The notes under the pieces were generated by a model. The model saw only the letters and a program-made list of their open reading frames with translations, was not told where the DNA came from and did not search any database. A stretch of 64,000 nt of DNA from Eubacteriales bacterium (lineage in GTDB: Bacteria > Bacillota > Clostridia > Oscillospirales > Oscillospiraceae), in contig JAUNNH010000006.1 of the NCBI GenBank assembly GCA_030531505.1, positions 38,733-102,732 on the forward strand, read 5' to 3'. The first letter of the stretch is position 1, and each line of letters opens with the position of its first letter. This document shows, piece after piece, positions 47,422 to 60,412 of this stretch. The translations under genes were made by a program, and so were the position numbers.

Positions 47422-48190
47422 AAACAAATCTTACTGGACCGGCCGCGCCGCGTCCTATTCTGAGGTCAATCAGCTGGAGCTTGCCACGCAGCAGCGGCAG
47501 AAGTGGAGCGACTGTCTCCATACCGAGATCGCGCGGCAGTTTCCGGAGCGCACGCCGGGCTCCCTGCGCGTGCTGGAGGTGGGTACCGGCCCGGGCTTTT
47601 TTGCCATCCTCCTGCGAGAGCTGGGCTATGACGTGACCGCCATCGACCTGACGCCCGCCATGCTGGAGGAAGCGAAGAAAAATGCCGGCGAGCTTGCCGA
47701 CAGGATCTGCTGGATGGAAATGAACGCGGAGGCGCTGCGCTTTAAGAATGAGAGCTTCGACGTGGTGGTCAGCCGCAACCTGACCTGGAACCTGCCACAT
47801 CCCGGCAAAGCCTATGCCGAGTGGGCACGGGTGCTGAAGCCGGGCGGACTGCTGTTGAACTTTGACGCCAACTGGTACGCCTATCTTTTTGACGACGAGG
47901 CCCAGGCCGCCTATGACCGGGATCGGGCCAACAGCGCCGAGCAGGGCGTGTGGGATCAGAACGTGGGAGAGAACTTCGACGTGATGGAGGACATCGCCCG
48001 CCGCGTGCCGCTGTCGAGTATCCGCCGCCCGGACTGGGATCTCACGCTCCTGCAGGGGCTCGGCCTGCACGCGGAGGCGGACGAGCAGATCTGGCAGCGC
48101 GTCTGGTCAGAGGAGGAAAAGCTGAATTTCTCCTCCACCCCGCTGTTCCTGGTGAGGGGACAGAAGAGACAGGGATCATTATTCTCATAA
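47393..48190 (+). CDS. Class I SAM-dependent methyltransferase, paralogue of the nik-operon enzyme
   Basis: A 265-residue methyltransferase with LRVLEVGTGPGFFAILLREL, AIDLTPAMLEEAKKNAGE and SRNLTWNLPHPGKAYAEW followed by LKPGGLLLNFDANWYAY. The last two blocks match the enzyme at 42090-42815 closely. The start overlaps the deacylase gene, implying coupling. It is the fourth methyltransferase of the metal island. An approximately 240-base AT-rich gap with one hairpin follows. Confidence 0.83.
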   Translation: MGSQQTILSENKSYWTGRAASYSEVNQLELATQQRQKWSDCLHTEIARQFPERTPGSLRVLEVGTGPGFFAILLRELGYDVTAIDLTPAMLEEAKKNAGELADRICWMEMNAEALRFKNESFDVVVSRNLTWNLPHPGKAYAEWARVLKPGGLLLNFDANWYAYLFDDEAQAAYDRDRANSAEQGVWDQNVGENFDVMEDIARRVPLSSIRRPDWDLTLLQGLGLHAEADEQIWQRVWSEEEKLNFSSTPLFLVRGQKRQGSLFS

Positions 48191-48320
48191 CAAAGAAATC
48201 GACTGTTGTTATTCAATCTGAAAGAAGTCACTAAATGTCCCTATTTGTCCTTGCTTTTATGTAGTATTATTATACTGCAAAGAATTATAGAACGGTTTCC
48301 AAGGAGCTATTCTATATAAC

Positions 48321-48366
48321 AGAAAGCGCGGGTTGAGGATTACCGATCTCCTCTTCCGCGCTTTCT
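48321..48366. terminator. Bidirectional terminator-like hairpin
   Basis: AGAAAGCGCG (48321-48330) pairs with CGCGCTTTCT (48357-48366); GAGGAT/GATCTCCTC pieces inside extend the stem. It lies between convergent genes ending at 48190 (+) and 48431 (-). Confidence 0.7.
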
Positions 48367-48430
48367 CCTTGCTAATGGTTTTTTATTTGGACTTTTTCTG
48401 GTTGAAGTGTTCAAGTCATTTCTGGCCTTG

Positions 48431-49522
48431 TCATCCCTTCTTTATCTGTGCTCTCTCCCGCCGCTTGTTTCTTTTCGTCCGTTCACGGTTGCATTCAAGT
48501 TTCCCGCAGGTGATTTGACGGTTACTGTTTTGGACAAAGGCAGCTCCGCAGAAAGGACATACTTTTATTCGCCCGTTTGTTCCCCTGCTTTTCCCCTTTT
48601 CCTCCGGAGTTACGTCGTCCGCTATTTTTCTTGCCAGTGTCAGCCAGGCAATGTCGAAAACAGATTCAACCTCCGCAGCAAACACTGTCCGCTGCGTTTT
48701 GGGATCCCTGCGAACCCGGATCGTAAAGCTAGGCATGATATCCAGCAGATCGTCGTACAAAGTTTCATAATCATCATAAGGAACCCCAGCAAAAATACCA
48801 TCATCCTCTTCCTCCGACACGTCTTCATCCGCCTCAGGTTCGGGATGCTTTTTTCGGTATTCAGCCAATAACATGATCTCTTTTCTGAGATCTCCATCTG
48901 CTGCTGACAGGTCTATTTCTTCATCTTGTGAATCATCATAATACTTGTATTTGTCAAAGAAGGGAAGGCCCTCAAAGAATCGCCCTTCCTCACTCAGATA
49001 ATATGCCATGTCGTCTTCGCCGAGCGCAACGTTTTCAAGGGCAAAATAGTATGCCGTTGTCGTGTACAGGCGTCGGAGGTCACGCATAAACTGGCTTAAT
49101 TCAAACGTGCCCGTTTTTTCGACCTGATTGTTTAGCGAGGCATCAAACTCTGAGTCTGTGACCAACGCATAAAGCTCATCCACAGCATACGGATTCCCAT
49201 AATGCTTGCACCAATCCAGAATACAGTACAGAAACGATCTCTCCTCCTGGAAATCGTTTATTTTTTTTGCCAAATTATACAGGCTGACAAGGAGCTCTTT
49301 TCCAGTCGGGGATTTCTCGTTTGGAAGAATAAAAGCATGGTTCTTGTCGCACAACGGAATGATCACATCACGGTCTCCGATATTATCCCAGTCGTATTCT
49401 TCAAATCGAACGAGATTATATACGATCTGTCCTGCTCCGCTAATGTCGCCGAATCCAAGAACTGGCTTTCTTTTTTTTCTTCTGCTTGTTTCGTTTTCAT
49501 ACTCATCATACTCGTCAAACAT
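48431..49522 (-). CDS. Hypothetical protein with C-terminal zinc ribbon
   Basis: Function not recognised. A 363-residue acidic protein with low-complexity Asp/Glu runs near residues 195-240. The C-terminal 45 residues, VCPFCGAAFVQNSNRQITCG and KLECNRERTKRNKRRERAQ, form a four-Cys zinc ribbon with a basic tail; it resembles the tail of DUF6076-type proteins found around mobile elements of gut Clostridia. Base composition is lower in GC than the neighbouring operons, which fits acquired DNA. It has its own promoter and GGAGGGATAATC before the ATG. Confidence 0.6.
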   Translation of the reverse strand: MFDEYDEYENETSRRKKRKPVLGFGDISGAGQIVYNLVRFEEYDWDNIGDRDVIIPLCDKNHAFILPNEKSPTGKELLVSLYNLAKKINDFQEERSFLYCILDWCKHYGNPYAVDELYALVTDSEFDASLNNQVEKTGTFELSQFMRDLRRLYTTTAYYFALENVALGEDDMAYYLSEEGRFFEGLPFFDKYKYYDDSQDEEIDLSAADGDLRKEIMLLAEYRKKHPEPEADEDVSEEEDDGIFAGVPYDDYETLYDDLLDIMPSFTIRVRRDPKTQRTVFAAEVESVFDIAWLTLARKIADDVTPEEKGKSRGTNGRIKVCPFCGAAFVQNSNRQITCGKLECNRERTKRNKRRERAQIKKG

Positions 49523-49589
49523 GATTATCCCTCCTTGTCTCCATTAGCGTCGCCGTTAGGTCGCTATTAGAAGTGTTTACATTGGCGAC

Positions 49590-49618
49590 ATTATACTCTA
49601 TAATTGCATTGAAAACAA
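49590..49618 (-). promoter_or_regulatory. Promoter of the zinc-ribbon protein gene
   Basis: On the minus strand TTGTTT (49618-49613) and TATAAT (49595-49590) are 17 bases apart. Confidence 0.65.
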
Positions 49619-49667
49619 GAGGCAACTTGCAAATTGTTTTCAACCCTTTCCCCGGCGCCTGCAGATG

Positions 49668-49676
49668 TCGATTCGA
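49668..49676. other. Candidate left attachment site of the phage-satellite-like element
   Basis: TCGATTCGA occurs here, 65 bases before the first element gene, and again at 58564-58572, just after the last recombinase gene. Large serine recombinases leave short shared cores. The match is only nine bases, so chance is possible. Confidence 0.35.
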
Positions 49677-49740
49677 AAATCGTTTCCTGGAGGTTACAAG
49701 GGATTAGTCTATCCAAAAGCAGAAAGAGAGGAGACGGATT

Positions 49741-49896
49741 ATGAAAAACCGGGATCGTCAGCGAAAGAATCGGAGACTAAAGCAAACGGAGGAGCGAATC
49801 GACAAACGCAATGCTTACGGCGTAAGGGATCTGACAGCATATAACGCAGTCGAACAGATCCGCACAGGCGGTCAGGCAGTAATCGTACTCAGGTGA
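49741..49896 (+). CDS. Small conserved hypothetical protein, 51 residues
   Basis: A 51-residue basic protein: MKNRDRQRKNRRLKQTEERI, then RNAYGVRDLTAYNAV and a short tail ending IVLR. GAGGAG lies seven bases before the ATG. Similar small ORFs precede excisionase-like genes in integrative elements of Clostridia. It is probably the first gene of the element's leftward module; function unknown. Confidence 0.6.
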   Translation: MKNRDRQRKNRRLKQTEERIDKRNAYGVRDLTAYNAVEQIRTGGQAVIVLR

Positions 49897-49978
49897 ATAC
49901 AGATCAGCCACCAAACGGACATGTGTTCGGCTGGTGGCTTTTGTATACCCATTAATAAGAAAGAGAGGAAGGAAAGAG

Positions 49979-50155
49979 ATGGAGAAAGCAACGATGAGCG
50001 TACAGGAACTGGCTTCGCAGCTCGGCATCAGTCTTCCGAAAGCCTATGAGCTGGTCAAGAGGCCGGGTTTTCCGGTCCTGCGGATCGGGACAAGGATCCT
50101 GATCCCGGTGGACGCGTTTCGGGAGTGGCTGTCGGACAATGCCACGCGGGAATAA
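49979..50155 (+). CDS. Excisionase-like helix-turn-helix protein
   Basis: A 58-residue MerR-like/HTH_17 domain: MSVQELASQLGISLPKAYEL, then PGFPVLRIGTRILIPVDAFREWL. This is the common form of excisionases and small regulators on phages and integrative elements. The ATG at 49979 follows AGGAAGGAAAG. It lies 36 bases before the primase gene and is probably cotranscribed. Confidence 0.85.
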   Translation: MEKATMSVQELASQLGISLPKAYELVKRPGFPVLRIGTRILIPVDAFREWLSDNATRE

Positions 50156-50191
50156 GCACAGCCGTATTCTGTCGGGAAGGAGGTGGAAGAA

Positions 50192-52483
50192 ATGGAAGAC
50201 TTCATGCAGGAACTGAAAGAACAGCGGATCTGGATGTTGTGGCGCTTTGAGATCCGGAAGGAAAAGCGAACCAAGGTGCCCAAGTCTGCCGTGGACGGCC
50301 GCGCCTCCGGTACAGATGAAAGCTGGCGGCAGACTTGGGTCACATACGAAGAAGCTGTAGCCGCAAAAGATACGTTTGGTATGGACGGCGTCGGCTTCAT
50401 GATTCCGGACGGGTACTTCTTCCTGGATGTGGATCACAGGGATCTGGATGATCCGCTGGTGCAGAAACTCCTGACCCGCTTTGACTCCTATGCTGAACGC
50501 TCTGTGAGCGGCGGTGGGATCCATATTTATGGACACTGTGTTACATCCCTAATCCCGGCCAACACGGACGCGAACGGCAAGGTCAAGCTGGACAGGGCCT
50601 ACTATATGAAGAATCCCCATAACGGTGTGGAGCTGTACTACGGCGGGATCACCAACCGCTTCGCAGTCTTCACCGGGAACGTCATATGGGGAAAGCCGCT
50701 GCGGGATTGCACAGAAGCTCTGCTGGCGACGCTGGATGAGGATATGCGGCGGCAAGAAAAGCCGGCTGAAAAGAAGCTGGCAAAAAGCCATGACGCCGTG
50801 TTCGACGTCGTGGGCAATCTGCTCCGGCAGGGCAACGCGGACAAGTTCCGGAAGCTGTATCAGGACGGGGATTTCTCAGATTACGGCTCCCAGTCCGAGG
50901 CCGACTGCGCGCTCTGCGCCATGATCGCATTCCGTACCGGCCCGGATCCGGACATGATCGACCGGGTCTTCCGCGCCTCCGCCCTGATGCGGGAGAAATG
51001 GGAGCGGGAGGATTACCGGGAAGCGACGATCCAGAAAGGCATCGAGGCCTGCAACGGAACCTTCCACCGCTCCAAGATGGAGCATCCGTACTTCATCCGC
51101 TTCAACGAAGTTTCCGGGGAAGCGTATGTGGTACCTTCGCTCCTGGCCCGGTACGTCCGGGAGAATGTGAAATACCTGCTTGTCCGGGACAGCGGTAAAC
51201 AGGCGCTCATGAAATATGTCTATGAGGGCGGCGTGTATAGGCTCTATGCGGAGGATATGTTTAAGGGCATGATCAAGGGCTTCGTGGAGGAGTATGATCC
51301 GGAACTCGTCAAGATGCGCATCATCACAGAGGTATACCAGCAGATCATCACAGATTTACAGTACATCGGGCAGGAAGAACTGGACGCCTGTGAGACCCTG
51401 ATCAATTTCAAAAACTGTCTCCTCCGGGTGGATGCGCGCGGGACGAACACAGTACCTCATACGCCCGCGGTCTACAGCACTATCCAGATCCCCTGCCGAT
51501 GGACGGGGAAGCCCGCGCCCACGCCGGTCTTTGACCAGTATCTGCACACCCTGACCAACGGGGACAAAGCGGTTGAACAGCTCCTGCTGGAGTTTATCGG
51601 CGCCTGCATCTCCAATGTGAAGGGCTGGCGTATGAAAAAGGCCCTGTTCCTCGTCGGCGCAGGGGACACCGGCAAGTCCCAGCTCAAGAGCCTGGTCGAA
51701 CGTCTGCTCGGGAAAGAGAACTTCATCGGGATCGACCTGAAGGAGATCGAGGCCCGGTTTGGCACCGGCGCCATCTACGGCACCCGGCTGGCTGGCAGCT
51801 CAGACATGAGTTTCCTGACGGTGGATGAACTGAAGACCTTCAAGAAGATTACCGGCGGCGACAGCCTGTTTGCCGAGTTCAAGGGACAACAGGGGTTCCA
51901 GTACACCTACAACGGGCTCCTCTGGTTCTGCATGAACCGGCTGCCGAAGTTCGGCGGCGACGACGGCCAATGGGTCTACAACCGGATCATGGTGGTCGAC
52001 TGCCCCAACGTCATCCCGCTGGAGAAACAGGATAAGGAGCTGCTGGACAAAATGTACGCCGAGCGGGAAGGGATCGTTTTCAAAGCGATCACAGCGTTGC
52101 AGACCGTCATCGCCAACGGATATCGCTTCTCGGAGCCGGAAAGCGTGACCGCCGCTCGGCAGAAGTATAAGGACACCAACAGCACGGTTGTGAGCTTCTT
52201 TGAGGAGTGCATGTGCCCCTGGCCGCAGGGAAAGATCGTCCGTCACTGCACTACAGGCCGGATCTACAAGGTCTACCAGGCCTGGTGCCGGGAAAACAAC
52301 AACGGCTATGCCAAGACAGCCCGTGAGTTCCGGGAGGATCTGGCGGAGCATCTCGGTGCCGGCTTTGCTGACATCACCACGCGGCAGAAGGGCAATACCT
52401 ACTATAAAGAATATACGCTGACGCTCGAGACCAAGGAAATGTATGCAAGGGAGTATGGCTGTGACGGCCTGGAATTCCTGTGA
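50192..52483 (+). CDS. P4-type primase-helicase (PrimPol-like + D5/SF3 helicase)
   Basis: A 763-residue replication protein. Residues 1-130 are the primase-like part with FFLDVDHRD (metal-binding Asp near 78/80) and SVSGGGIHIYGH. The middle is a D5_N-type region. The SF3 helicase carries Walker A GAGDTGKSQ (about 488-496), GSSDMSFLTVDELKTFKKIT and the arginine/sensor region LLWFCMNRLPKFGGDDGQWV. The C-terminal part resembles the winged DNA-binding tail of P4 alpha proteins (YKVYQAWCRENNNGYAKTAR). The ATG at 50192 follows AAGGAGG. Iteron repeats begin five bases after its stop codon, so it probably initiates replication there. Confidence 0.9.
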   Translation: MEDFMQELKEQRIWMLWRFEIRKEKRTKVPKSAVDGRASGTDESWRQTWVTYEEAVAAKDTFGMDGVGFMIPDGYFFLDVDHRDLDDPLVQKLLTRFDSYAERSVSGGGIHIYGHCVTSLIPANTDANGKVKLDRAYYMKNPHNGVELYYGGITNRFAVFTGNVIWGKPLRDCTEALLATLDEDMRRQEKPAEKKLAKSHDAVFDVVGNLLRQGNADKFRKLYQDGDFSDYGSQSEADCALCAMIAFRTGPDPDMIDRVFRASALMREKWEREDYREATIQKGIEACNGTFHRSKMEHPYFIRFNEVSGEAYVVPSLLARYVRENVKYLLVRDSGKQALMKYVYEGGVYRLYAEDMFKGMIKGFVEEYDPELVKMRIITEVYQQIITDLQYIGQEELDACETLINFKNCLLRVDARGTNTVPHTPAVYSTIQIPCRWTGKPAPTPVFDQYLHTLTNGDKAVEQLLLEFIGACISNVKGWRMKKALFLVGAGDTGKSQLKSLVERLLGKENFIGIDLKEIEARFGTGAIYGTRLAGSSDMSFLTVDELKTFKKITGGDSLFAEFKGQQGFQYTYNGLLWFCMNRLPKFGGDDGQWVYNRIMVVDCPNVIPLEKQDKELLDKMYAEREGIVFKAITALQTVIANGYRFSEPESVTAARQKYKDTNSTVVSFFEECMCPWPQGKIVRHCTTGRIYKVYQAWCRENNNGYAKTAREFREDLAEHLGAGFADITTRQKGNTYYKEYTLTLETKEMYAREYGCDGLEFL

Positions 52484-52487
52484 TCGG

Positions 52488-52801
52488 GGTAGCAGAGGTA
52501 GCAGTCGGGGTAGCAGCAAAACCACGTACTGCTACCCGCTGAAAGCCTTGTGCCGCAAGGGTTTGACGGCCCTGGGTAGCAGAGGTAGCAGTTCTTTCAA
52601 CTTCTCAGCGGGTTTTGAGAAAAAAAGAGAAAAGAATAATAGAATAGAAAGAAAAAGAAGAAAAAGAAATATGTATGTGTATACGGAGTTGGATTTACTG
52701 CTACCTCTGCTACCCGTAAGGCTGAAAGCCCTGGTATGACTGGATTTTTCGGGGTAGCAGTACTCAACGGAACTGCTACCCGTACTGCTACCTCTGCTAC
52801 C
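52488..52801 (+). repeat. Iteron array around an A-rich tract, probable replication origin
   Basis: GGTAGCAG occurs 12 times in 314 bases: on the plus strand at 52488, 52497, 52509, 52575, 52584 and 52753, and inverted (CTGCTACC) at 52529, 52698, 52707, 52773, 52785 and 52794. Four pairs are spaced exactly nine bases apart. Between the left and right groups, 52620-52680 is almost pure A/G and very A-rich, suitable for unwinding. P4-family alpha proteins bind iterons of similar length beside their primase gene. No ORF with a ribosome site lies within it. Confidence 0.8.
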
Positions 52802-52833
52802 CAGAGCGTGGTCATGAAGGGAGGTGAAAAAAC

Positions 52834-53208
52834 ATGAGCAATATCTGGACGGTGCCCCAGCCGACGACGCATATGCGGCAGCTCTGCCGTGAGCTCGGCC
52901 CGGAGTACATCATCCGGGAGCTGGACCTGGAGCGTGTGATCTACCGGGATTTCGGCAACGGCTACAACGTGGAGATCTCCGCCGCGAACACGAGCAGCAA
53001 GCGCAAGCCTGTGAACCTGTATCTCTGGCGCGGAGAGGACCGAAAGATCGGGAGCAGGCTTCGGGTCCCGCAGGATAGTATCCACGAAGAGGTTGAAAGG
53101 TTGCGCGCATTCACGGAAACGATTCTGCCGGAAGATTTTGATGAGCACGGCTTCTTTAGCCGTGACCTGTACGAAAAGAATCATGCCGGCAGCGCGGAGA
53201 AGCGTTAA
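52834..53208 (+). CDS. Hypothetical element-encoded protein
   Basis: Function not recognised. The 124-residue protein begins MSNIWTVPQPTTHMRQLCRE and contains FGNGYNVEISAANTSSKRKP and VNLYLWRGEDRKIGSRL, suggesting a small alpha/beta fold. GGGAGGTG precedes the ATG. It sits between the origin-like repeats and the small terminase gene, a position where satellites often carry regulatory or packaging genes. The next 210 bases (53209-53419) hold no gene that could be supported. Confidence 0.65.
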   Translation: MSNIWTVPQPTTHMRQLCRELGPEYIIRELDLERVIYRDFGNGYNVEISAANTSSKRKPVNLYLWRGEDRKIGSRLRVPQDSIHEEVERLRAFTETILPEDFDEHGFFSRDLYEKNHAGSAEKR

Positions 53209-53419
53209 ACCATCGCAGAGAGCCTCTGGCCGGTTGCGTGCGGCAGATAGGGATTATACGTCCGATCGCGTACAGAAGCGTTAAACGACCAACAGGCCCC
53301 ATAGGGGGGTCTCAATCTCTACGGCTGCTGATGTGGGCAACGGCGCGGGGTCACGCGCGCAAAAAAAGCGAAATCAAACGCAAAAAACAGGGAAATCAAT
53401 CCCGGAATGGAGGAAAAGT

Positions 53420-53977
53420 ATGTCAAAAGACGGAACGAATCGAGGCGGTCCCCGTCCCAGTTCCGGCCGAAAGGCCAAAGCGGTATGCGAAAAGCTCGCC
53501 AGCGGAAACCCCGGCGGCAGGAAGCTGTCCGTGATTGACTTCGGAGACGAAGCTGTCAATCTGGACGGCGCGGAAATGCCGCCGATCAAGGAGTATCTTC
53601 GGAAGAAGCAGAAGGACGGGAGCGTCACCTGCGCCGAGGCGATCTTCAAAGAGACCTGGGAATGGCTGCGGGAACGCCGGTGCGATCATCTGGTCACCAC
53701 CCAACAGATCGAACAATACGCCATGAGCGTTGCCCGCTGGGTGCAGTGCGAAGAAGCGGTCTCGGATTACGGCTTTCTGGCAAAGAAGCCGACCGGGACC
53801 GTAGTTTCCTCCCCCTATGTCACTATGGGCAGGGAGTACATGAAGCAGGCCAATGCTGCCTGGTTCCAGATCTTCCAAGTCGTGAAAGAAAACTGTTCTG
53901 TGGAGCTCAGCGGCCCGACTCCGCAGGATGATGTGATGGAGCGTCTGCTCCGCGCACGCGAGGGCCGGAGATTCTAA
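53420..53977 (+). CDS. P27-family phage terminase small subunit
   Basis: A 185-residue protein. The opening MSKDGTNRGGPRPSSGRKAK is typical of P27-type small terminases, which recognise packaging sites on phage DNA; the helical part RRCDHLVTTQQIEQYAMSVA and YMKQANAAWFQIFQVVKENC also fits. TGGAGG precedes the ATG at 53420. No large terminase gene follows, so DNA packaging would depend on a helper phage. Confidence 0.8.
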   Translation: MSKDGTNRGGPRPSSGRKAKAVCEKLASGNPGGRKLSVIDFGDEAVNLDGAEMPPIKEYLRKKQKDGSVTCAEAIFKETWEWLRERRCDHLVTTQQIEQYAMSVARWVQCEEAVSDYGFLAKKPTGTVVSSPYVTMGREYMKQANAAWFQIFQVVKENCSVELSGPTPQDDVMERLLRAREGRRF

Positions 53978-54001
53978 ACAGAGATGAGAGGTGAAAAGAC
54001 A

Positions 54002-55006
54002 ATGGAAAATGTAAAAACGGTTGACGAACTGATGGAGAAGCTGAATTCGCTGGCGGATGAGATGTCCGGAAAAAAGAAAACGCCCTCGGCGGTGGAACTC
54101 CGTAAGGCAGAAAACTATAGGCGAGCTTTTTGGGAACATATGCATACCGGCCTTCCGGAGAACGACCTGAAAGAAGGGAGCGACGGCTCCGGGGGCTACC
54201 TGGTCCCCGATGAGTATGAGACGAAGCTGGTACAGGCGCTGGAGGAACAGAACATTCTCCGTAAGCTCGGGCATGTGTTCCCGACCACACGGAAGATCAA
54301 GATCCCCATTGTGCTCGGGGAAGGCAACGCCACCTGGATGCCGGAGAATGCTCCGTACCGGGTAAGCGACATTGACTTTGGCCAGGTGGAGATCAGCGCA
54401 CACAAGCTGGCAGCTCGGCTCCTTGTGTCGGACGAGCTGCTGGAGGATTCCGCTGTGGACCTGGAAAGCCTGATCACAGAACTGTTCAAGGCGGAAATGA
54501 ACGACGCAGAAGAGGCAGCGTTCTTTACCGGGGACGGGAACGGGAAGCCACTGGGGCTGGTCTACCAGACGCCCGTCGGTACGGAAACAGAGGAAGCCGG
54601 CAAGATCTCCATGGATGATATCCTGGATCTGATTTACTCCGTCACAAAGCCGTTCCGGGATAAGTCGGTCCTGGTTATGTCCGAGAGAACGTATTGGGAT
54701 CTGAGAAAGATCCGGGTTCACAACGGTCGGTATGTCTGGAATCCGGATCTTCAGAAAGATGGCTATGACACGCTGTTCGGATACCGCGTGTACACGACGA
54801 AAAACCTGCCCGATCCGGAATCCGGCGCCCGGCCGGTCCTGTTCGGTTATTTCGATTACTATTGGATTGGCGATCGGGGCAAGCGTGTGATCAAACGTCT
54901 GGTGGAGCGTTACGCCGATCACGGACAGGTCGGGTACCTGGTGTCCCAGCGGGTCGATGCGAAGCTCGTCTTCCCGGAAGCCATCAAGGCGCTGGAAGTC
55001 CGTTAA
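54002..55006 (+). CDS. HK97-type phage major capsid protein
   Basis: A 334-residue HK97-fold capsid protein. The N-terminal 70 residues form a short delta-domain helix (DELMEKLNSLADEMSG), then GSGGYLVPDEYETKLVQALE, PTTRKIKIPIVLGEGNATWM, LAARLLVSDELLEDSAVDLE and AAFFTGDGNGKPLGLVYQTP are classic HK97 capsid blocks. No prohead protease or portal gene is next to it. AGAGGTG precedes the ATG at 54002. It lies 24 bases after the small terminase gene. Confidence 0.92.
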   Translation: MENVKTVDELMEKLNSLADEMSGKKKTPSAVELRKAENYRRAFWEHMHTGLPENDLKEGSDGSGGYLVPDEYETKLVQALEEQNILRKLGHVFPTTRKIKIPIVLGEGNATWMPENAPYRVSDIDFGQVEISAHKLAARLLVSDELLEDSAVDLESLITELFKAEMNDAEEAAFFTGDGNGKPLGLVYQTPVGTETEEAGKISMDDILDLIYSVTKPFRDKSVLVMSERTYWDLRKIRVHNGRYVWNPDLQKDGYDTLFGYRVYTTKNLPDPESGARPVLFGYFDYYWIGDRGKRVIKRLVERYADHGQVGYLVSQRVDAKLVFPEAIKALEVR

Positions 55007-55065
55007 CTGGTTTGGGGAGGAGAGTCAATATGGCTTTCCTCCCCCTTGGGAAATGAGAGGGCAAA

Positions 55066-55449
55066 ATGAAAACTCAGATCAAAAATGAGATCAACGCCAT
55101 GCGGCTGGCCGGCGCAAAGGCCTCGGAGATCGCTTCGCACTTAGGGATTCCGGCCAGCACCGTGCGCACCCATATCCGTCGGCACCCGGAGATCCCGAAC
55201 ACGGTCGTCTGTCCGACCTGCGGAAAGAGAGTCATGCTGGGTGCCAACGGCCGGAAGAAGAAATACTGTTCTGACCGATGCCGCATGGCCTGGTGGAACA
55301 GCCATCCGGAGGCGATCCGCCGGAAAGCATACTACACGCTGACATGCCTGTACTGCGGAAAGGAGTATGAGAGCTATGGGAATCAAAAGAGGAAGTACTG
55401 CAGCCGCGCCTGCTACGACGCCGTGCGACGATCCATACAGGCCGGATAA
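55066..55449 (+). CDS. HTH and double zinc-ribbon DNA-binding protein
   Basis: A 127-residue protein. Residues 1-45 contain an HTH (AGAKASEIASHLGIPASTVR), followed by two zinc motifs: CPTCGKRV ... KYCSDRCRMAWW and CLYCGKEYESYGNQKRKYCSRAC. Proteins with this plan are commonly encoded next to serine recombinases in clostridial elements and are often labelled sigma-70-like. A role as regulator or recombination accessory factor is likely. Confidence 0.75.
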   Translation: MKTQIKNEINAMRLAGAKASEIASHLGIPASTVRTHIRRHPEIPNTVVCPTCGKRVMLGANGRKKKYCSDRCRMAWWNSHPEAIRRKAYYTLTCLYCGKEYESYGNQKRKYCSRACYDAVRRSIQAG

Positions 55450-55597
55450 CCTGATTCAATACCATGTGTCTCTCGGACTGGTAGAAAAGCTGGTCACACG
55501 CGGCGATCTGAGCAAGTCCGATTACCGCAAAGCCTGCCAGATTCTGACCCTGAAATACGGCCTTCCCGCTGACAGCATTTTCGCAGAAATTGCTTGA
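55376..55597 (+). CDS. SHOCT-domain small protein
   Basis: A 73-residue protein whose C-terminal half, RGDLSKSDYRKACQILTLKY followed by GLPADSIFAEIA, is a SHOCT-type short helical domain. It starts inside the 3' end of the zinc-ribbon gene in another frame (74-base overlap); AAGGAG lies ten bases before the ATG at 55376. Such SHOCT proteins regularly precede serine recombinase pairs. Confidence 0.7.
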   Translation: MGIKRGSTAAAPATTPCDDPYRPDNLIQYHVSLGLVEKLVTRGDLSKSDYRKACQILTLKYGLPADSIFAEIA

Positions 55598-55657
55598 TAT
55601 TCCGCGGATTCTATGGCTTAATCCTACTACAAGATTGATACAAAGGAGGCGGCAGAA

Positions 55658-57106
55658 TTGGCAAGAGAGATCACGCAGGTGCCCTTTGCGCCGATCCTGA
55701 AGAAGCGAAAGCGCGTGGCGGCCTATGCGCGCGTCTCGTCCGGGAAGGACGCGATGCTCCATTCGCTCTCCGCCCAGATCAGCTACTACAGCGAACTGAT
55801 TCAAAAACACCCTTGCTGGGAGTTTGCAGGTGTGTATGCAGATGAAGCGAAAACCGGCACCCGCGACAGTCGGGAGCAGTTCCAAAAACTCCTGCAGGAC
55901 TGTCGGAACGGAAAAGTGAATATGGTGATTACGAAGTCCATCTCACGCTTCGCCCGAAACACGGTGACGCTGCTGTCAACCATCCGGGATCTGAAAGCGC
56001 TCGGGGTGGACGTCTTCTTTGAAGAGCAGAATATTCATACATTGAGCGCCGATGGTGAACTCATGATCACCGTACTTGCCAGCTATGCACAGGAAGAAAG
56101 CCTGTCTGCCAGCGAGAACCAGAAGTGGCGGATCCGGAAGAACTTTGAGGCCGGGATCCCATGCGACGGAACGATATTAGGGTACCGTTACAAGGACGGG
56201 AGCTATGTGATCGAGCCGACAGAGGCCGAGACCGTCCGCCGCATATATGGAATGTATCTTTCCGGGATGGGGGAACGGAGCATTGCCAAGAAACTTAATT
56301 CGGAAGAGCTCTCCACGCGCTATGGGAACTGCTGGACGAAAAACAGCATCGCCAGCGTCCTGAAAAACTACACCTACACTGGCAATCTGCTTCTGCAGAA
56401 GACATTCCGCGAGAATCATCTGACCAAGCACGACGTAAAGAACCACGGGCAACTGCCTCAGTATCATGCCGCCGACACCCATGAGGCCATCATCAGCATG
56501 GAAGACTATAACGCAGTACAGGAAGAAATGGTTCGGCGGGCTGCAAGATATGCGCCGCCGACAAAGGACTACACCAAACGGTATCCATATTCCAGCCTGA
56601 TCACCTGTGGCTGCTGCGGTGCGCGGTATTCCAGAAAGGTAACCCACGGCGGGCCTGTCTGGATCTGCACGACATACAATACGCAGGGCAAATCTGTCTG
56701 CCCGTCAAAAGCAGTTCCGGAGCGCGTACTGGATTCCCTGACAGCAGACATCTCCCTCGATGATTTAACGGCACTCAGAGCAGAGAACGGCAACCGGCTG
56801 GTGTTCTGCTTCAAGGACGGTTCCGAAAGCGTTAAACGATGGGAAGACCGTTCCCGCGTGGAGAGCTGGACGCCGGAGATGAAGGAAGCTGCCCGTCAGA
56901 AAAGCAAAATGGCACGGTCAAAAGCCGTGCCCAAACTATACCATTCCCCAAGGAGGCGTCCCCATGCAGATAGCGAAGAATGTGACCGTAATTCCAGCAA
57001 CCTTTCATGCCCAGACACATCAGCCGGCAACCCAGAAAGCGTGCCGCCGTGTCGCCGGGTATGCCCGTGTGAGCACCGACAGCGACGAGCAGTTCACCAG
57101 CTATGA
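55658..57106 (+). CDS. Large serine recombinase (first of pair)
   Basis: A 482-residue site-specific recombinase. Catalytic Ser27 lies in AAYARVSS; the resolvase domain continues with SISRFARNT and ASYAQEESLSASENQKWRIR. A recombinase domain (ILGYRYKDGSYVIEPTEAET) and a zinc ribbon (CGCCGARYSR ... CPSK) follow. It starts with TTG at 55658, supported by AAAGGAGG eight bases upstream. The last 48 residues overlap the next recombinase gene in another frame and are low in recognisable structure. Probably drives integration or excision with its partner. Confidence 0.92.
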   Translation: MAREITQVPFAPILKKRKRVAAYARVSSGKDAMLHSLSAQISYYSELIQKHPCWEFAGVYADEAKTGTRDSREQFQKLLQDCRNGKVNMVITKSISRFARNTVTLLSTIRDLKALGVDVFFEEQNIHTLSADGELMITVLASYAQEESLSASENQKWRIRKNFEAGIPCDGTILGYRYKDGSYVIEPTEAETVRRIYGMYLSGMGERSIAKKLNSEELSTRYGNCWTKNSIASVLKNYTYTGNLLLQKTFRENHLTKHDVKNHGQLPQYHAADTHEAIISMEDYNAVQEEMVRRAARYAPPTKDYTKRYPYSSLITCGCCGARYSRKVTHGGPVWICTTYNTQGKSVCPSKAVPERVLDSLTADISLDDLTALRAENGNRLVFCFKDGSESVKRWEDRSRVESWTPEMKEAARQKSKMARSKAVPKLYHSPRRRPHADSEECDRNSSNLSCPDTSAGNPESVPPCRRVCPCEHRQRRAVHQL

Positions 57107-58553
57107 GGCGCAGGTGGATTACTACACCAGCTATATACGCTCCCACACAGAATGGGAGTTCGTAGGAGTGTATACGGATGAGGGAGTCAGCGGTTTGGGC
57201 ACCCGCAAGAGGGACGGATTCAACGCCATGATTCGCGACGCGCTTGCCGGAAAGATCGATCTCATCGTCACGAAAAGTGTAAGCCGCTTTGCCCGCAACA
57301 CGGTCGACAGCCTGACAACGATTCGCAAGCTGAAAGAGCACGGGACAGAAGTATACTTTGAAAAAGAGGCTATCTGGACCTTCGATGGCAAAGGGGAACT
57401 TCTCCTGACGATCATGTCCAGCCTCGCCCAGGAAGAATCCCGCTCCATCTCGGAAAACGTCACCTGGGGCCAGCGAAAGCGTATGGCCGATGGGAAGGTG
57501 ACGATCCCGTACAAACACTTCCTCGGTTACCGCAAAGGGCCAGATGGTCTGCCGGAGATCGTGCCGGAAGAAGCTGAGCTGGTGCGGCGGATCTACCGGA
57601 TGTTCATCGAAGGGATGGCTGTCAGCCGGATCGCACGGACGCTTACAGATGAAGGGATCCCGACGCCGGGCGGAAAGCAGAAATGGCAGAACAGCGTGAT
57701 CGAAAGCATCCTGACCAATGAAAAATACAAGGGGGACGCCCGCCTTCAGAAGAAGTTCACAACCGACTTTCTGACCAAGAAAATGAAGGTGAACGAAGGC
57801 GAGGTCCCCCAGTATTATGTCCGAAACAGCCACCCTGCCATCATAGAGCCGGGAGCCTGGGATCAAGTGCAGAAGGAGATGCAGAAACGCAAGGCGAATC
57901 CCCGGCAGCGGTACTGCAGCAGCCCCTTCTCCGGCAAGATCATCTGCGGGGATTGCGGCTGCGTGTACGGCTCCAAGGTATGGCACAGTACGGATCAGTA
58001 CAGGCGTGTGATCTGGCAGTGCAATGGGAAATTCAAGGGCGATGAAAAATGCACGACGCCACACCTGACGGAAGATCAGATCCGGGATGCGTTCCGGGAA
58101 GCGGTCAGCAAACTGATTCAGGATCGGACGGCGCTTCTGGAAGATGGAAGGATCATAAAAAATGCGCTAACGGACTGCACCGGCATCGATGAAAAGTTGA
58201 ATGAGATCTCACGGGAAATGGAGATCATCGCCGGAATGATCGAAAGCTGTGTCCGAGAAAACGCCGCCACCGCTCAGGATCAGTGCCAGTACAAAAGCAG
58301 ATATGACGATCTGATCAATCGCTTTGAAACATTGCAGGCAAAGCAGGCGGCCTTGCAGAAGGAACGCTCCGAGCGGGAGCGGAAAGCCGATGCGCTGGAT
58401 GCCTTCCTGTTTGAGCTAAACGAACTGGACGATCTGGATATAGAGTTCAGCCCGCGCCGGTGGAACGCAATCGTCGATCGTGTGACCGTGCACAGCGACG
58501 GCAGGATCATATTCAGCTTCCAGAACGGGTGTGATGTGACGGTGATTATTTGA
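56964..58553 (+). CDS. Large serine recombinase (second of pair)
   Basis: A 529-residue recombinase. Catalytic Ser37 lies in AGYARVSTDSD; VTKSVSRFARNTVDSL and SSLAQEESRSISENVTWGQR follow. The recombinase domain, a zinc ribbon (CGDCGCVYGSK ... CTTPH) and a long coiled coil (about residues 420-495) typical of large serine integrases are all present. AAGGAGG precedes the ATG. It overlaps the first recombinase gene by 143 bases and ends 11 bases before the candidate right attachment core. Confidence 0.93.
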   Translation: MQIAKNVTVIPATFHAQTHQPATQKACRRVAGYARVSTDSDEQFTSYEAQVDYYTSYIRSHTEWEFVGVYTDEGVSGLGTRKRDGFNAMIRDALAGKIDLIVTKSVSRFARNTVDSLTTIRKLKEHGTEVYFEKEAIWTFDGKGELLLTIMSSLAQEESRSISENVTWGQRKRMADGKVTIPYKHFLGYRKGPDGLPEIVPEEAELVRRIYRMFIEGMAVSRIARTLTDEGIPTPGGKQKWQNSVIESILTNEKYKGDARLQKKFTTDFLTKKMKVNEGEVPQYYVRNSHPAIIEPGAWDQVQKEMQKRKANPRQRYCSSPFSGKIICGDCGCVYGSKVWHSTDQYRRVIWQCNGKFKGDEKCTTPHLTEDQIRDAFREAVSKLIQDRTALLEDGRIIKNALTDCTGIDEKLNEISREMEIIAGMIESCVRENAATAQDQCQYKSRYDDLINRFETLQAKQAALQKERSERERKADALDAFLFELNELDDLDIEFSPRRWNAIVDRVTVHSDGRIIFSFQNGCDVTVII

Positions 58554-58563
58554 GGCACTATAT

Positions 58564-58572
58564 TCGATTCGA
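58564..58572. other. Candidate right attachment site of the phage-satellite-like element
   Basis: TCGATTCGA, identical to 49668-49676, lies directly after the recombinase stop codon, the usual place of an att site for a serine integrase. Evidence is limited to this nine-base match. Confidence 0.35.
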
Positions 58573-58607
58573 CTCGTATTATTATTGGCTGCTTCGACAA
58601 AAGAAAG

Positions 58608-58629
58608 CCGGGGACATTACTGTCCCCGG
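58608..58629 (-). terminator. Terminator of the Abi gene
   Basis: CCGGGGACA (58608-58616) pairs with TGTCCCCGG (58621-58629) around TTAC; on the minus strand CTTTCTTTT follows. Confidence 0.7.
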
Positions 58630-58716
58630 TAAACAGATGGCCCACAGTTGCGCCATATAGGCTTGTGGGAACTGTCAAGAGCATTATATGCATGTAATTG
58701 AGTACTATTCTCATTA

Positions 58717-59598
58717 TTAAAGCAGTTGCTCCCAATCATCTCGGAACCCATAGTATCTCATGGATACAAAGGGATATTTCTTGTGCAGCGCGATTACCTC
58801 CGCTTTCATTTCTTCAAAGCTGGTATGATCAATTAACCGGCGCATCATGATCACAAATCCATACAAATGAGAATTGTCGATCGTTCCATCATCAGATTTA
58901 ATTAGTAATCCTTTTTCTTTGCTGTTTAGTGATGGTTTTCGAATGAATAGACGGTTAAACAGGCGATTCCCGTGGGCACAGAAATTACGAATAGTTGTCA
59001 TGGAGTACAGGTATTCCCCCAAAATAACAGGCCCCATATTCATGTGTAAGCCAAACTGGTTGGCAATCACGGTTTTTAGTTCTGGGAGTGAAATATGGTA
59101 TAGCTTTGAAATGTCGCCTAAGGTAAAAAGCTCAATATATGCCCATATCGGCATATCTTCTTGAAGATCAATTACATAATGCTGAATAAAGGCCTCGTGC
59201 TGTAAACTCCGTGTTTTTTGATCATTTGCTTTTGCCATTATTCCAACGTATTCAAGGGGGTCAGTAAAATGCGAGCTGTTCATGTACTCAAGAGAACCAT
59301 ACATTCTTGCAAATTCATATGCATATATTGATTTGATTCTGACTTCTATCTGCTCAATATACTTTAGAAGCACATGCCGTAGTTCATGATCGAATCGATA
59401 GATATCAACAATGTTCTGAAAAGAAGCACTTTCATAAAAAACATCATGATTTCGGAGTGTCAGGGAATACCCACTAACGCGGTAATAGTTGGTATTACGC
59501 AGAAACTCCTCTGCAAGCTGCTCATCTGTTATCTGCAAACCTCGAGATTTTAGTAATTCAATCTGCTCCGCTATAGTCTTGAATTCTTTAGTACCCAT
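58717..59598 (-). CDS. Abi_2 (AbiD/AbiF-type) abortive infection protein
   Basis: A 293-residue anti-phage protein of the Abi_2 family. Typical blocks are IAEQIELLKSRGLQITDEQL, NTNYYRVSGY, IYRFDHELRHVLLKYIEQIE and MTTIRNFCAHGNRLFN. The last contains an R-x4-H motif (Arg204, His209) as in HEPN ribonucleases. Such proteins are thought to halt growth of infected cells. TAGGAGC precedes the ATG. Directly upstream lies a small hairpin RNA with its own promoter, the arrangement known for AbiF systems. GC content is much lower than the chromosome, a sign of transfer. Confidence 0.88.
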   Translation of the reverse strand: MGTKEFKTIAEQIELLKSRGLQITDEQLAEEFLRNTNYYRVSGYSLTLRNHDVFYESASFQNIVDIYRFDHELRHVLLKYIEQIEVRIKSIYAYEFARMYGSLEYMNSSHFTDPLEYVGIMAKANDQKTRSLQHEAFIQHYVIDLQEDMPIWAYIELFTLGDISKLYHISLPELKTVIANQFGLHMNMGPVILGEYLYSMTTIRNFCAHGNRLFNRLFIRKPSLNSKEKGLLIKSDDGTIDNSHLYGFVIMMRRLIDHTSFEEMKAEVIALHKKYPFVSMRYYGFRDDWEQLL

Positions 59599-59611
59599 AA
59601 AAAGCTCCTAA

Positions 59612-59671
59612 ATAAACAGAAAGCCCCCAAGTGTGCATACGGTAAAACCGCAGAGGCCCGGGGGATTTGTT
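59612..59671 (-). ncRNA. AbiF-like structured RNA upstream of the Abi gene
   Basis: The minus-strand transcript predicted from 59671 folds with CCCCC (59628-59624 side) pairing GGGGG (59664-59660 side in complement) as outer stem and CGGT-TTT-ACCG as inner hairpin, followed by CTTTCTGTTT. Position and shape fit the AbiF RNA motif listed in Rfam, found upstream of AbiF-type genes. This was not checked by a covariance search. It may serve as antitoxin for the Abi protein. Confidence 0.6.
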
Positions 59672-59677
59672 GTAATG

Positions 59678-59706
59678 ATCATAGCATCAGAAGATCCTAT
59701 TGTCAA
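59678..59706 (-). promoter_or_regulatory. Near-consensus promoter of the Abi RNA and gene
   Basis: On the minus strand TTGACA (59706-59701) and TATGAT (59683-59678) are 17 bases apart; the start would fall about seven bases later, at the base of the RNA stem. Confidence 0.8.
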
Positions 59707-59722
59707 TAGTTGCTAATCAAAT

Positions 59723-60031
59723 TCACAAAAAAGTCATGATAAATAGAAGGTCAGTTGTTCTATTTGCAGATAAGGCGAGACTGTTAATCAATCTCGCCCT
59801 ATCGCCTTTATTCCATTCATCTTCTGTGTTTGCTTTAATATATCGAAGGCATTCTTCAATAAACGGGTAGAACAGATCACATGAAGCCTGATTGTCGCCC
59901 AAATCAAAAGTACCATCTGTTACGATAGTGTTTTTCTTTCCAAAGGTACTAAAGAATGATGTCCGTTTCAGCGCTGCTTGTACTGCTTCTACAGTATATA
60001 TTTCTACAAAATAAAAGTATAGCATACTCAT
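59723..60031 (-). CDS. Hypothetical protein fragment
   Basis: Not recognised. A 102-residue frame, with EECLRYIKANTEDEWNKGDR and ARLINSLALSANRTTDLLFI at its end, which read like a real helical C-terminus. The N-terminal part is poor and no ribosome site precedes the ATG, so it is probably the 3' remnant of a longer gene in this AT-rich accessory stretch. Confidence 0.35.
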   Translation of the reverse strand: MSMLYFYFVEIYTVEAVQAALKRTSFFSTFGKKNTIVTDGTFDLGDNQASCDLFYPFIEECLRYIKANTEDEWNKGDRARLINSLALSANRTTDLLFIMTFL

Positions 60032-60100
60032 TTCGATATTTACAGATCAAATTTGCACAATAGGCTGGTTTTTTGATCTCTTTTTCTTCATCGGCGGCAG

Positions 60101-60144
60101 TTTAACAAATGCTATCATAGTTTAACGATTCTCCATAATTTAAC
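60101..60144. repeat. Three spaced TTTAAC repeats
   Basis: TTTAAC occurs at 60101, 60121 and 60139, about two helical turns apart, just upstream of the 17-bp inverted repeat and 190 bases from the 3' end of tRNA-Leu. They could be binding sites for a recombinase accessory protein, or chance in AT-rich DNA. The rest of 60032-60280 holds no gene that can be supported. Confidence 0.3.
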
Positions 60145-60149
60145 GAAAA

Positions 60150-60214
60150 GAAAGCACAGTATATGGTAGTTCGGCTGCAATTCAGCGAATCCTTAAGCCA
60201 TATATTGTGCTTTC
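60150..60214. repeat. 17-bp inverted repeat
   Basis: GAAAGCACAGTATATGG (60150-60166) pairs with 60198-60214 with one mismatch, around a 31-base loop. It may be a terminator or an element end. Confidence 0.5.
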
Positions 60215-60283
60215 GATTATTCAAATGAATCGCCCGCGGTTCAAAATGCCTGCCGTATCGGCCTTTCCGGGCATAAAAAAACG

Positions 60284-60319
60284 AAACAGCAGATCGACAC
60301 ATTGTATCAATCTACTGTT
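60284..60319 (-). terminator. Terminator of tRNA-Leu
   Basis: On the minus strand AAACAGTAGAT pairs with ATCTGCTGTTT (one mismatch), followed by CGTTTTTTT. It begins eight bases after the CCA end. A diverged copy without a tRNA lies at 27573-27618. Confidence 0.8.
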
Positions 60320-60326
60320 TCTGATC

Positions 60327-60412
60327 TGGTGCCGGCGACCGGACTCGAACCGGTACGGTCTTGCGGCCAAGGGATTTTAAGTCCCTGGTGTCTACCATTC
60401 CACCACGCCGGC
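60327..60412 (-). tRNA. tRNA-Leu (anticodon TAA)
   Basis: The 86-base minus-strand sequence begins GCCGGCG, pairs with CGCCGGC before the discriminator A, and ends in an encoded CCA. The anticodon loop CTTAAAA lies between AGGGA and TCCCT, giving anticodon TAA. A long variable arm (TTGGCCGCAAGACCGT) marks a class II tRNA, and GGTTCGAGTCC is the T arm. It lies next to the mobile region, where tRNA 3' ends are frequent insertion points. Confidence 0.95.

Follow-up and report, generated by a model that had tools for sequence, protein, structure and literature searches.

A satellite-like integrated element of Clostridia with its own small terminase subunit and a single short-delta capsid gene

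We analysed a 64,000-nucleotide stretch of DNA (the window) from contig JAUNNH010000006.1, positions 38,733 to 102,732, of the Oscillospiraceae assembly GCA_030531505.1 (2.24 Mb in 42 contigs, 74% complete). The window contains an integrated element of about 12 kb that has its own replicon, a gene for a terminase small subunit (TerS) and one capsid gene, and in which profile scans find no gene for the terminase large subunit (TerL), the portal or the protease. This content, which an initial annotation of the window had called satellite-like, is conserved in related loci, and the element has one mark of a phage satellite, being integrated and lacking the genes for a complete particle. It is probably an integrative phage satellite of Clostridia that redirects both the capsid assembly and the DNA packaging of a helper phage; we infer its induction, the co-assembly of its capsid protein, the identity of its helper and its transfer.

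The TerS and capsid genes form a conserved pair

All gene calls were checked by hidden Markov model scans of the window proteins against Pfam, PHROGs and NCBIfam (E up to 0.01). The two central genes are:

53420..53977, + strand: terminase small subunit (Terminase_4/phrog_83; PF05119 32.5 against a cut-off of 24.7, phrog_83 115 bits)
54002..55006, + strand: HK97-fold capsid protein with a short (~63 aa) delta region (PF05065 229 against 24, TIGR01554 286 bits)

The HK97 assignment made initially is borne out by PF05065 and TIGR01554, and the capsid gene likely starts at 54002, which has AGGTGA upstream, rather than at 53984. In satellite loci the two genes are separated by a median of 29 bp (22 loci, 23 rows) and TerL, portal and protease never lie between them, whereas the gap in phages is 5.8–14.3 kb (37 loci, 41 rows); TerL lies inside it in 40 of these rows, and portal and protease do so in all 41. 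The delta region of the satellite capsid proteins has a median length of 63 residues (29 rows; 65 with the longest possible start), whereas phages from the nearest group have a median of 119. The 29 rows include one capsid of phage type from a satellite contig (L108 160-1347, 118 residues), which leaves the median of 63 unaffected.

Both proteins group by satellite origin. A capsid tree of 70 rows places 26 satellite capsids in one clade (bootstrap/SH-aLRT 100/99) and five more, including that of genome G006, in a second clade (100/99); this tree, the second one made for the capsid, omits L025, which has a very long branch. We do not claim that the satellite capsid arose twice independently, since one origin is not rejected (p-AU 0.286). 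The TerS tree gathers 28 of the 29 satellite rows in one clade (SH-aLRT 96), with L116 separate, and the TerS of the window is 69–84% identical to those of 14 satellite relatives. The ratio of nonsynonymous to synonymous substitution rates (dN/dS) of the listed pairs is 0.055–0.273 for capsid and 0.038–0.231 for TerS; the input was hand-chosen (13 capsid, 11 TerS, 8 zinc-ribbon and 7 recombinase sequences) and limited to pairs with dS < 2 and pS > 0.05. The satellite capsid and TerS genes are under purifying selection and have a satellite history of their own.

TerL, portal and protease are not found in satellite loci

Profiles for TerL, portal and protease were built iteratively from 153 phage-side loci and applied at E up to 0.01. 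They match 76, 65 and 55 of these loci, respectively, which is partly so by construction, and many of the other loci are short contigs. None of the 40 satellite sources, many of which are partial contigs, matches any of the three. These 40 remain from 46 sources first listed as satellites, among which TerL matched only in L109 and L111-L113 and portal and protease in none; L109-L114 (primase ~56%, TerS 44–46%) were first counted as satellites and then treated as phages. The initial annotation had named the missing genes, if found in the elements of relatives, as the mark of a degraded prophage. For TerL, portal and protease the 40 satellite sources, partial contigs in many cases, yield none; tail genes were sought among the window's own proteins.

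Gene organization and replication module

Besides TerS, capsid and cargo, the element contains the following features:

48431..49522, − strand: divergent conserved protein with a C-terminal Cys-rich basic tail (36–45% identity to six relatives aligned)
49934..50155, likely start 49979, + strand: excisionase-type helix-turn-helix (HTH) protein (TIGR01764 41.6 bits against a cut-off of 28.8; HTH_17 above cut-off)
50183..52483, + strand: P4-family primase-helicase (TIGR01613 158.5 against 108.7; phrog_1829 413.8 bits, residues 4-751)
52484..52805, no strand: probable replication origin, 12 GGTAGCAG iterons, dyad-symmetric around an A-rich core (repeat analysis)
52834..53208, + strand: conserved 124-aa protein (45–51% in L041, L043, L044, L107, L108 and L132)
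55066..55449, + strand: HTH and zinc-ribbon protein (phrog_2308 118 bits; 54–60% in many relatives)
55367..55597, + strand: small conserved SHOCT-like protein (after the zinc-ribbon gene in many relatives)
55658..57106, + strand: large serine recombinase 1 (PF00239, PF07508, PF13408)
56964..58553, + strand: large serine recombinase 2 (PF00239, PF07508, PF13408; 143-bp overlap with recombinase 1)

Most of these identities agree with the initial annotation, which had listed the excisionase-like HTH, the P4-type primase-helicase and the two overlapping serine recombinases; of its zinc-ribbon and SHOCT proteins the former is supported by phrog_2308, whereas the SHOCT label is weak (16.6, below the Pfam cut-off of 24). 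The excisionase-type HTH is 67–73% identical in many relatives, and the two recombinase matches overlap also in L002, L003, L027, L029, L034, L037 and L131. In L030, L031 and L038, the recombinase 1 match stops before the recombinase 2 match starts. The profile scans found no family match for the 124-aa protein and no relaxase among the proteins of the element. The divergent protein likewise has no Pfam, PHROGs or NCBIfam match at E up to 0.01, and its AlphaFold model is too weak for use (pLDDT 53). Its gene precedes the excisionase gene in several relative loci, and this position makes it a candidate master regulator or switch.

The iteron array that adjoins the primase gene is stronger than initially claimed. 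All 12 copies of GGTAGCAG in the 64 kb lie in 52488-52801, where they are mirror-symmetric about 52,644 on both sides of an A-rich stretch; 1.35 copies are expected per window, and none of 100 shuffles reaches 12. Among nine relatives examined, L003, L105, L106 and L107 carry the same CTGCTACC iteron as the window 3´ of the primase gene, L115, with a more distant primase (55%), has a different repeat there, and L108, L116, L117 and L118 have doublets at most. On this anatomy, the array could be a primase-specific origin.

Distribution and variation of content among relatives

Scans of viral contigs gave 7 loci by capsid, the best 80 of 244 by TerS and 15 by primase, and a genome scan with the TerS alignment gave the best 80 of 460 loci; the window proteins were mapped on the relative loci, many of which are from IMG/VR, by tblastn. 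The same gene order, which the initial annotation had proposed to seek in other genomes, does recur: TerS, capsid, zinc ribbon, SHOCT-like protein and recombinases follow one another in many viral-catalogue contigs and metagenome-assembled genomes of Clostridia, including L130 (Oscillospiraceae) and L132 (Clostridiaceae). The divergent gene and the excisionase gene stand ahead of TerS and capsid in L032-L035. A window-type primase accompanies the conserved order in L003 (gene end only) and, with TerS missing, in L105; the primases of other members are too divergent for the tblastn used.

The order is not uniform. The zinc-ribbon gene is missing between the TerS-capsid pair and the recombinases in L008, L043, L133 and L134. 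Nine loci (L030, L031, L036-L040, L042 and L131, not all distinct elements) have no capsid gene, TerS and the zinc-ribbon gene being direct neighbours; L105 has a capsid gene but no TerS. L106 (15254-16534) shares the divergent gene, excisionase and primase with the window and has an excisionase and a tyrosine integrase after a capsid gene of the other clade: its integration and head modules are exchanged. In the same genus as the window, L288 (G006:C25) has a primase gene, one serine recombinase gene and a short capsid gene that stands alone, and it lacks a TerS of the window's family; L017 was first classed as a phage, and this context shows a satellite-like lone capsid.

The divergent gene provides a marker that is independent of capsid and TerS. 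Within the order it matches 5 of 394 genomes, and among near relatives 4 of 99, the window's own genome being counted in both. Five regions were examined. In G412 and G312 an excisionase and a serine recombinase accompany a single capsid gene (30% identity), and the sequence retrieved contains no TerL, portal or protease; the regions in G092 and G041 end at contig edges, the G041 primase being 89% identical to that of the window, and G364 has only a fragment of the divergent gene. The TerS search matches 17 of the 394 genomes, with a satellite-level score in the window's genome alone (386 bits; up to 275 in the others). The element is uncommon. A TerS match is also present in MT837391.1, a 6,986-bp record from human faeces that carries no annotation.

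Extent and insertion site

The limits of the element and its right border are:

48158..60120, no strand: whole inserted element, ~12 kb with approximate ends (left 48158-48430, right ~60024-60120; comparison with G034 and of the right-end block)
60114..60326, no strand: block with TTTAACGA repeats that separates the right end of the element from the tRNA (block comparison; either host or element sequence)
60327..60412, − strand: tRNA-Leu (taa), which borders the right end

An occupied and an empty site could be compared, as the initial annotation had suggested. In G034, a genome of the same genus, ~34 nt connect the methyltransferase gene (which ends at 48,190 in the window) to the sequence at window position 60,114, and the ~12 kb in between are absent. 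Because G034 joins the methyltransferase gene to the tRNA-Leu side without this block, the element is taken to extend over about 12 kb, from 48,158 to about 60,120. The divergent gene is part of it, since it is conserved in relatives upstream of their excisionase gene. The limits first proposed (49,668 to 58,572, about 9 kb) are therefore too tight, and they overlooked the divergent gene, the AbiD cargo and the right end. An element-free site in G036 is similar to the right flank of the window leftwards to position 60024, which leaves an uncertainty of about 100 bp in the right edge. The G+C content is 0.54–0.58 over 50-58 kb, compared with mostly 0.57–0.67 in the first 48 kb of the window.

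At the right ends of the window's element and of L027, L030, L037, L130, L131 and L132, a distance of 187-188 nt separates the TTTAACGA repeats from a tRNA 3´ end; the tRNA is one for Leu, Arg or Ala. The block also stands beside tRNAs at element-free sites, and its two-repeat pattern is found in 11 of 99 genomes, that of the window included. It looks like either a zone in which such elements preferentially land or a mobile terminus that stayed behind, and we make no choice between the two. The conserved block of ~200 nt (L263-L267, L270 and the window) contains an inverted repeat and a terminator-like hairpin and adjoins tRNAs for Leu, Glu, Arg and Ala in different genomes; G036 and G013 carry a partial duplication of it. 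At L267:5776-6501 (G005), a C-terminal piece of the divergent gene (39% identity) directly abuts the block on a 7.2-kb contig without another satellite gene match, and this piece is likely the remnant of a deleted satellite. An Rfam scan returned the tRNA as its sole match; a sub-threshold MIR5048 match falls on the symmetric iteron array.

Cargo

Two genes lie to the right of the recombinases:

58717..59598, − strand: AbiD-type abortive-infection protein, cargo (Abi_2 155 bits against a cut-off of 25.6; PADLOC AbiD 258 bits)
59723..60031, − strand: 102-aa protein, cargo (no match in family or PADLOC scans)

Defence-type genes occupy this position in four of six elements examined: AbiD in the window, AbiH in L037, a PDC-S31 candidate in L027 and an AbiL-like ATPase in L130. 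Ten cargo proteins were scanned, of which five have no PADLOC match and that of L034 has a weak one.

Discussion

We propose that the element is kept quiet in the chromosome, with the divergent gene as a candidate switch. On the action of a helper phage, the element would be excised by its serine recombinases and the excisionase-type HTH, to judge from their families, and the P4-type primase-helicase may then copy it from the adjacent dyad-symmetric iteron origin. By analogy with the pac-type Staphylococcus aureus pathogenicity islands (SaPIs), the satellite TerS would guide the helper TerL to satellite DNA; by analogy with Ccm of SaPIbov5, the short-delta capsid protein may join the helper capsid protein and steer assembly to a smaller shell, of a size for ~12 kb. 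The helper would provide portal, TerL, protease and tail, and AbiD and other defence genes would travel as cargo. The helpers are likely phages of the group with the nearest TerS and capsid, such as the Oscillospirales phage PV036458.1 (listed as Ca. Heliusvirales); the nearest phage-side TerS and capsid loci and records are mostly Clostridia by name, and some, including PV036458.1, carry both.

Redirection of a helper combined with a takeover of its packaging is the most likely account, and a shell made by the satellite itself ranks second. In that second account, which we regard as unlikely, the satellite capsid protein alone builds a whole small capsid and borrows portal, TerL, protease and tail. 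The initial annotation had proposed that the element supplies its own capsid subunit; the delta region is about halved and no protease was found, which fits a Ccm-like redirection at least equally well. Ccm supplies only the pentamers of the small capsid, the hexamers coming from the helper, and Ccm alone forms no capsids (PMC8569155, PMC5052747). Satellites that do make shells, the capsid-forming phage-inducible chromosomal islands (cf-PICIs), encode portal, protease and connectors, together with HNH and both terminase subunits (PMC10690885). Redirection is favoured over a self-made shell because the short delta region parallels that of SaPIbov5 Ccm, which redirects helper assembly. The TerS and the short capsid protein might also be mainly decoys that poison packaging and assembly of the helper and protect the host, mobility being otherwise provided for. 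Defence genes adjoin the pair, and ccm expressed alone is reported to lower phi12 titres 10^3- to 10^4-fold (PMC5052747); however, the element's own replicon, excisionase, recombinases and variable cargo, together with records named for three bacterial families, indicate a transferred element, which makes a mainly protective role improbable. Interference and piracy are not mutually exclusive.

The other two explanations are far less probable. A degraded prophage that has kept TerS and capsid by chance would explain why the genes are phage-derived, and one deletion in a phage head operon, from TerS into the delta region, would yield the observed adjacency. We nevertheless reject it as highly improbable: the same reduced content and the TerS-capsid adjacency recur in many related loci, the genes form satellite-only clades with low dN/dS and intact frames, and the element has its own replication origin. 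It is equally hard to accept an integrative mobilisable element whose capsid protein has been domesticated as an encapsulin-like compartment, since that protein shares up to 46% identity with capsid proteins of phages and its gene adjoins TerS, and the profile scans gave no relaxase match.

Several observations weigh against a satellite that redirects both assembly and packaging. The host assembly (74% complete) gives no match to the portal (PF04860), to TerL (PF03354), to a second capsid or to a second TerS, so no resident helper is seen. The TerS, initially called a P27 small terminase, matches PF05119 and phrog_83 but scores below the narrower NCBIfam P27 model (19.4 against 45.6). In the related phages L209 (PV036458.1) and L151, the phrog_83 "terminase small subunit" gene is separated from TerL by kilobases and has an HNH or DNA-methyltransferase gene as its neighbour; in PV036458.1 it is annotated as hypothetical, and the predicted TerS role rests on profiles. 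Since some relatives have no capsid gene and others no TerS, neither gene is essential. L117 has its capsid gene ahead of the primase gene, and L129 (Lachnospiraceae) has TerS and capsid with no zinc-ribbon gene or recombinases in 10.6 kb. Exact terminal repeats, sought as a sign of circularity, occur in none of 25 viral contigs tested. Finally, the family profile found the phi12 capsid protein (7rwz_B, E 5e-12) among PDB chains and did not find Ccm, so the link to Ccm is one of architecture and probably not of close descent.

Among satellite capsid homologues that stand alone, we met just one whose role has been worked out, Ccm of the cos-type staphylococcal islands. A distinct Clostridia family that comes in natural variants (capsid and TerS, TerS only, capsid only) would allow a comparative test of capsid-size and packaging redirection. 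Some short contigs in viral catalogues would then be satellites rather than phage fragments, and the cargo slot would also move anti-phage genes. Small circular gut contigs with capsid genes have been reported, and a T=3 tailed capsid is predicted to hold ~11.8 kb (PMC7762592). One might speculate, although we would sooner doubt it, that the elements are a distinct and old Clostridia satellite class with TerS and one short-delta capsid protein as its hallmark, and that this protein builds or forces a tailed capsid of very small size (about T=3, for ~12 kb), the lack of which in tailed phages was called puzzling. Modules are loosely combined in these elements: integration is of the serine or the tyrosine type, the primases differ, the capsids fall into two clades, and both TerS and capsid are optional. 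Such a make-up would then show satellites acquiring single head genes.

Comparison with known satellites and phages

SaPI-like phage-inducible chromosomal islands (PICIs) of Gram-positive bacteria have a tyrosine integrase at one end, and a divergent regulator and an AlpA/Xis-type protein upstream of the replication module. The window has a PICI-like layout of divergent gene (−), xis (+) and primase, in which the divergent gene may act as regulator; it differs in having two serine recombinases instead of the tyrosine integrase, although the relative L106 has a tyrosine integrase with an excisionase. A PICI-type packaging module is also present, if the TerS (above the PF05119 cut-off) and the short-delta capsid homologue function as their sequences suggest. 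P4 has origin repeats adjoining its primase-helicase gene, as well as defence cargo, and it has Sid and Psu; Sid/Psu/Delta genes mark P4-like satellites. To our knowledge, P4 has no TerS of its own. The window's element resembles P4 in its P4-family primase-helicase (above the TIGR01613 cut-off) and adjacent origin repeats, and differs in that profile scans of its proteins show no match to Sid, Psu or Delta. P4 encodes no major capsid protein (PMC7762592). Unlike cf-PICIs, with their complete head and packaging set, the element shows no TerL, portal or protease in the scans.

Among the matches listed, phages with a phrog_83 TerS and a phrog_10 capsid (for example PV036458.1 and Erysipelothrix phage phi1605) are up to 64% identical to the window's TerS and up to 46% to its capsid protein. 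They differ in that TerL, portal and protease part the two genes and the delta region is of full length.

The closest parallels are found in the SaPIs. SaPIbov5 and other cos-SaPIs are, like the window's element, small integrated satellites with one short-delta HK97 homologue, and SaPIbov5 relies on structural proteins of the helper. Ccm has 355 aa and an 87-residue delta region, compared with 402 aa and 128 residues in the helper capsid protein, and no protease is identified in the island (PMC8569155, PMC5052747). The window's element differs in having a TerS gene directly upstream of the capsid gene (SaPIbov5 has a phi12 cos site) and in its two serine recombinases and Clostridia hosts. The pac SaPIs encode their own TerS, which works with the helper TerL, and redirect capsid size by CpmA and CpmB, which are unrelated in sequence to Ccm (PMC5052747); the window's element shares the former and has a capsid homologue in place of the latter. 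A search of titles and abstract openings, in which subscription papers and bioRxiv are poorly covered, found no paper describing this satellite family. The element unites side by side the two parts that the SaPIs hold separately: an own TerS, as in the pac SaPIs, and a Ccm-like capsid homologue, as in SaPIbov5.

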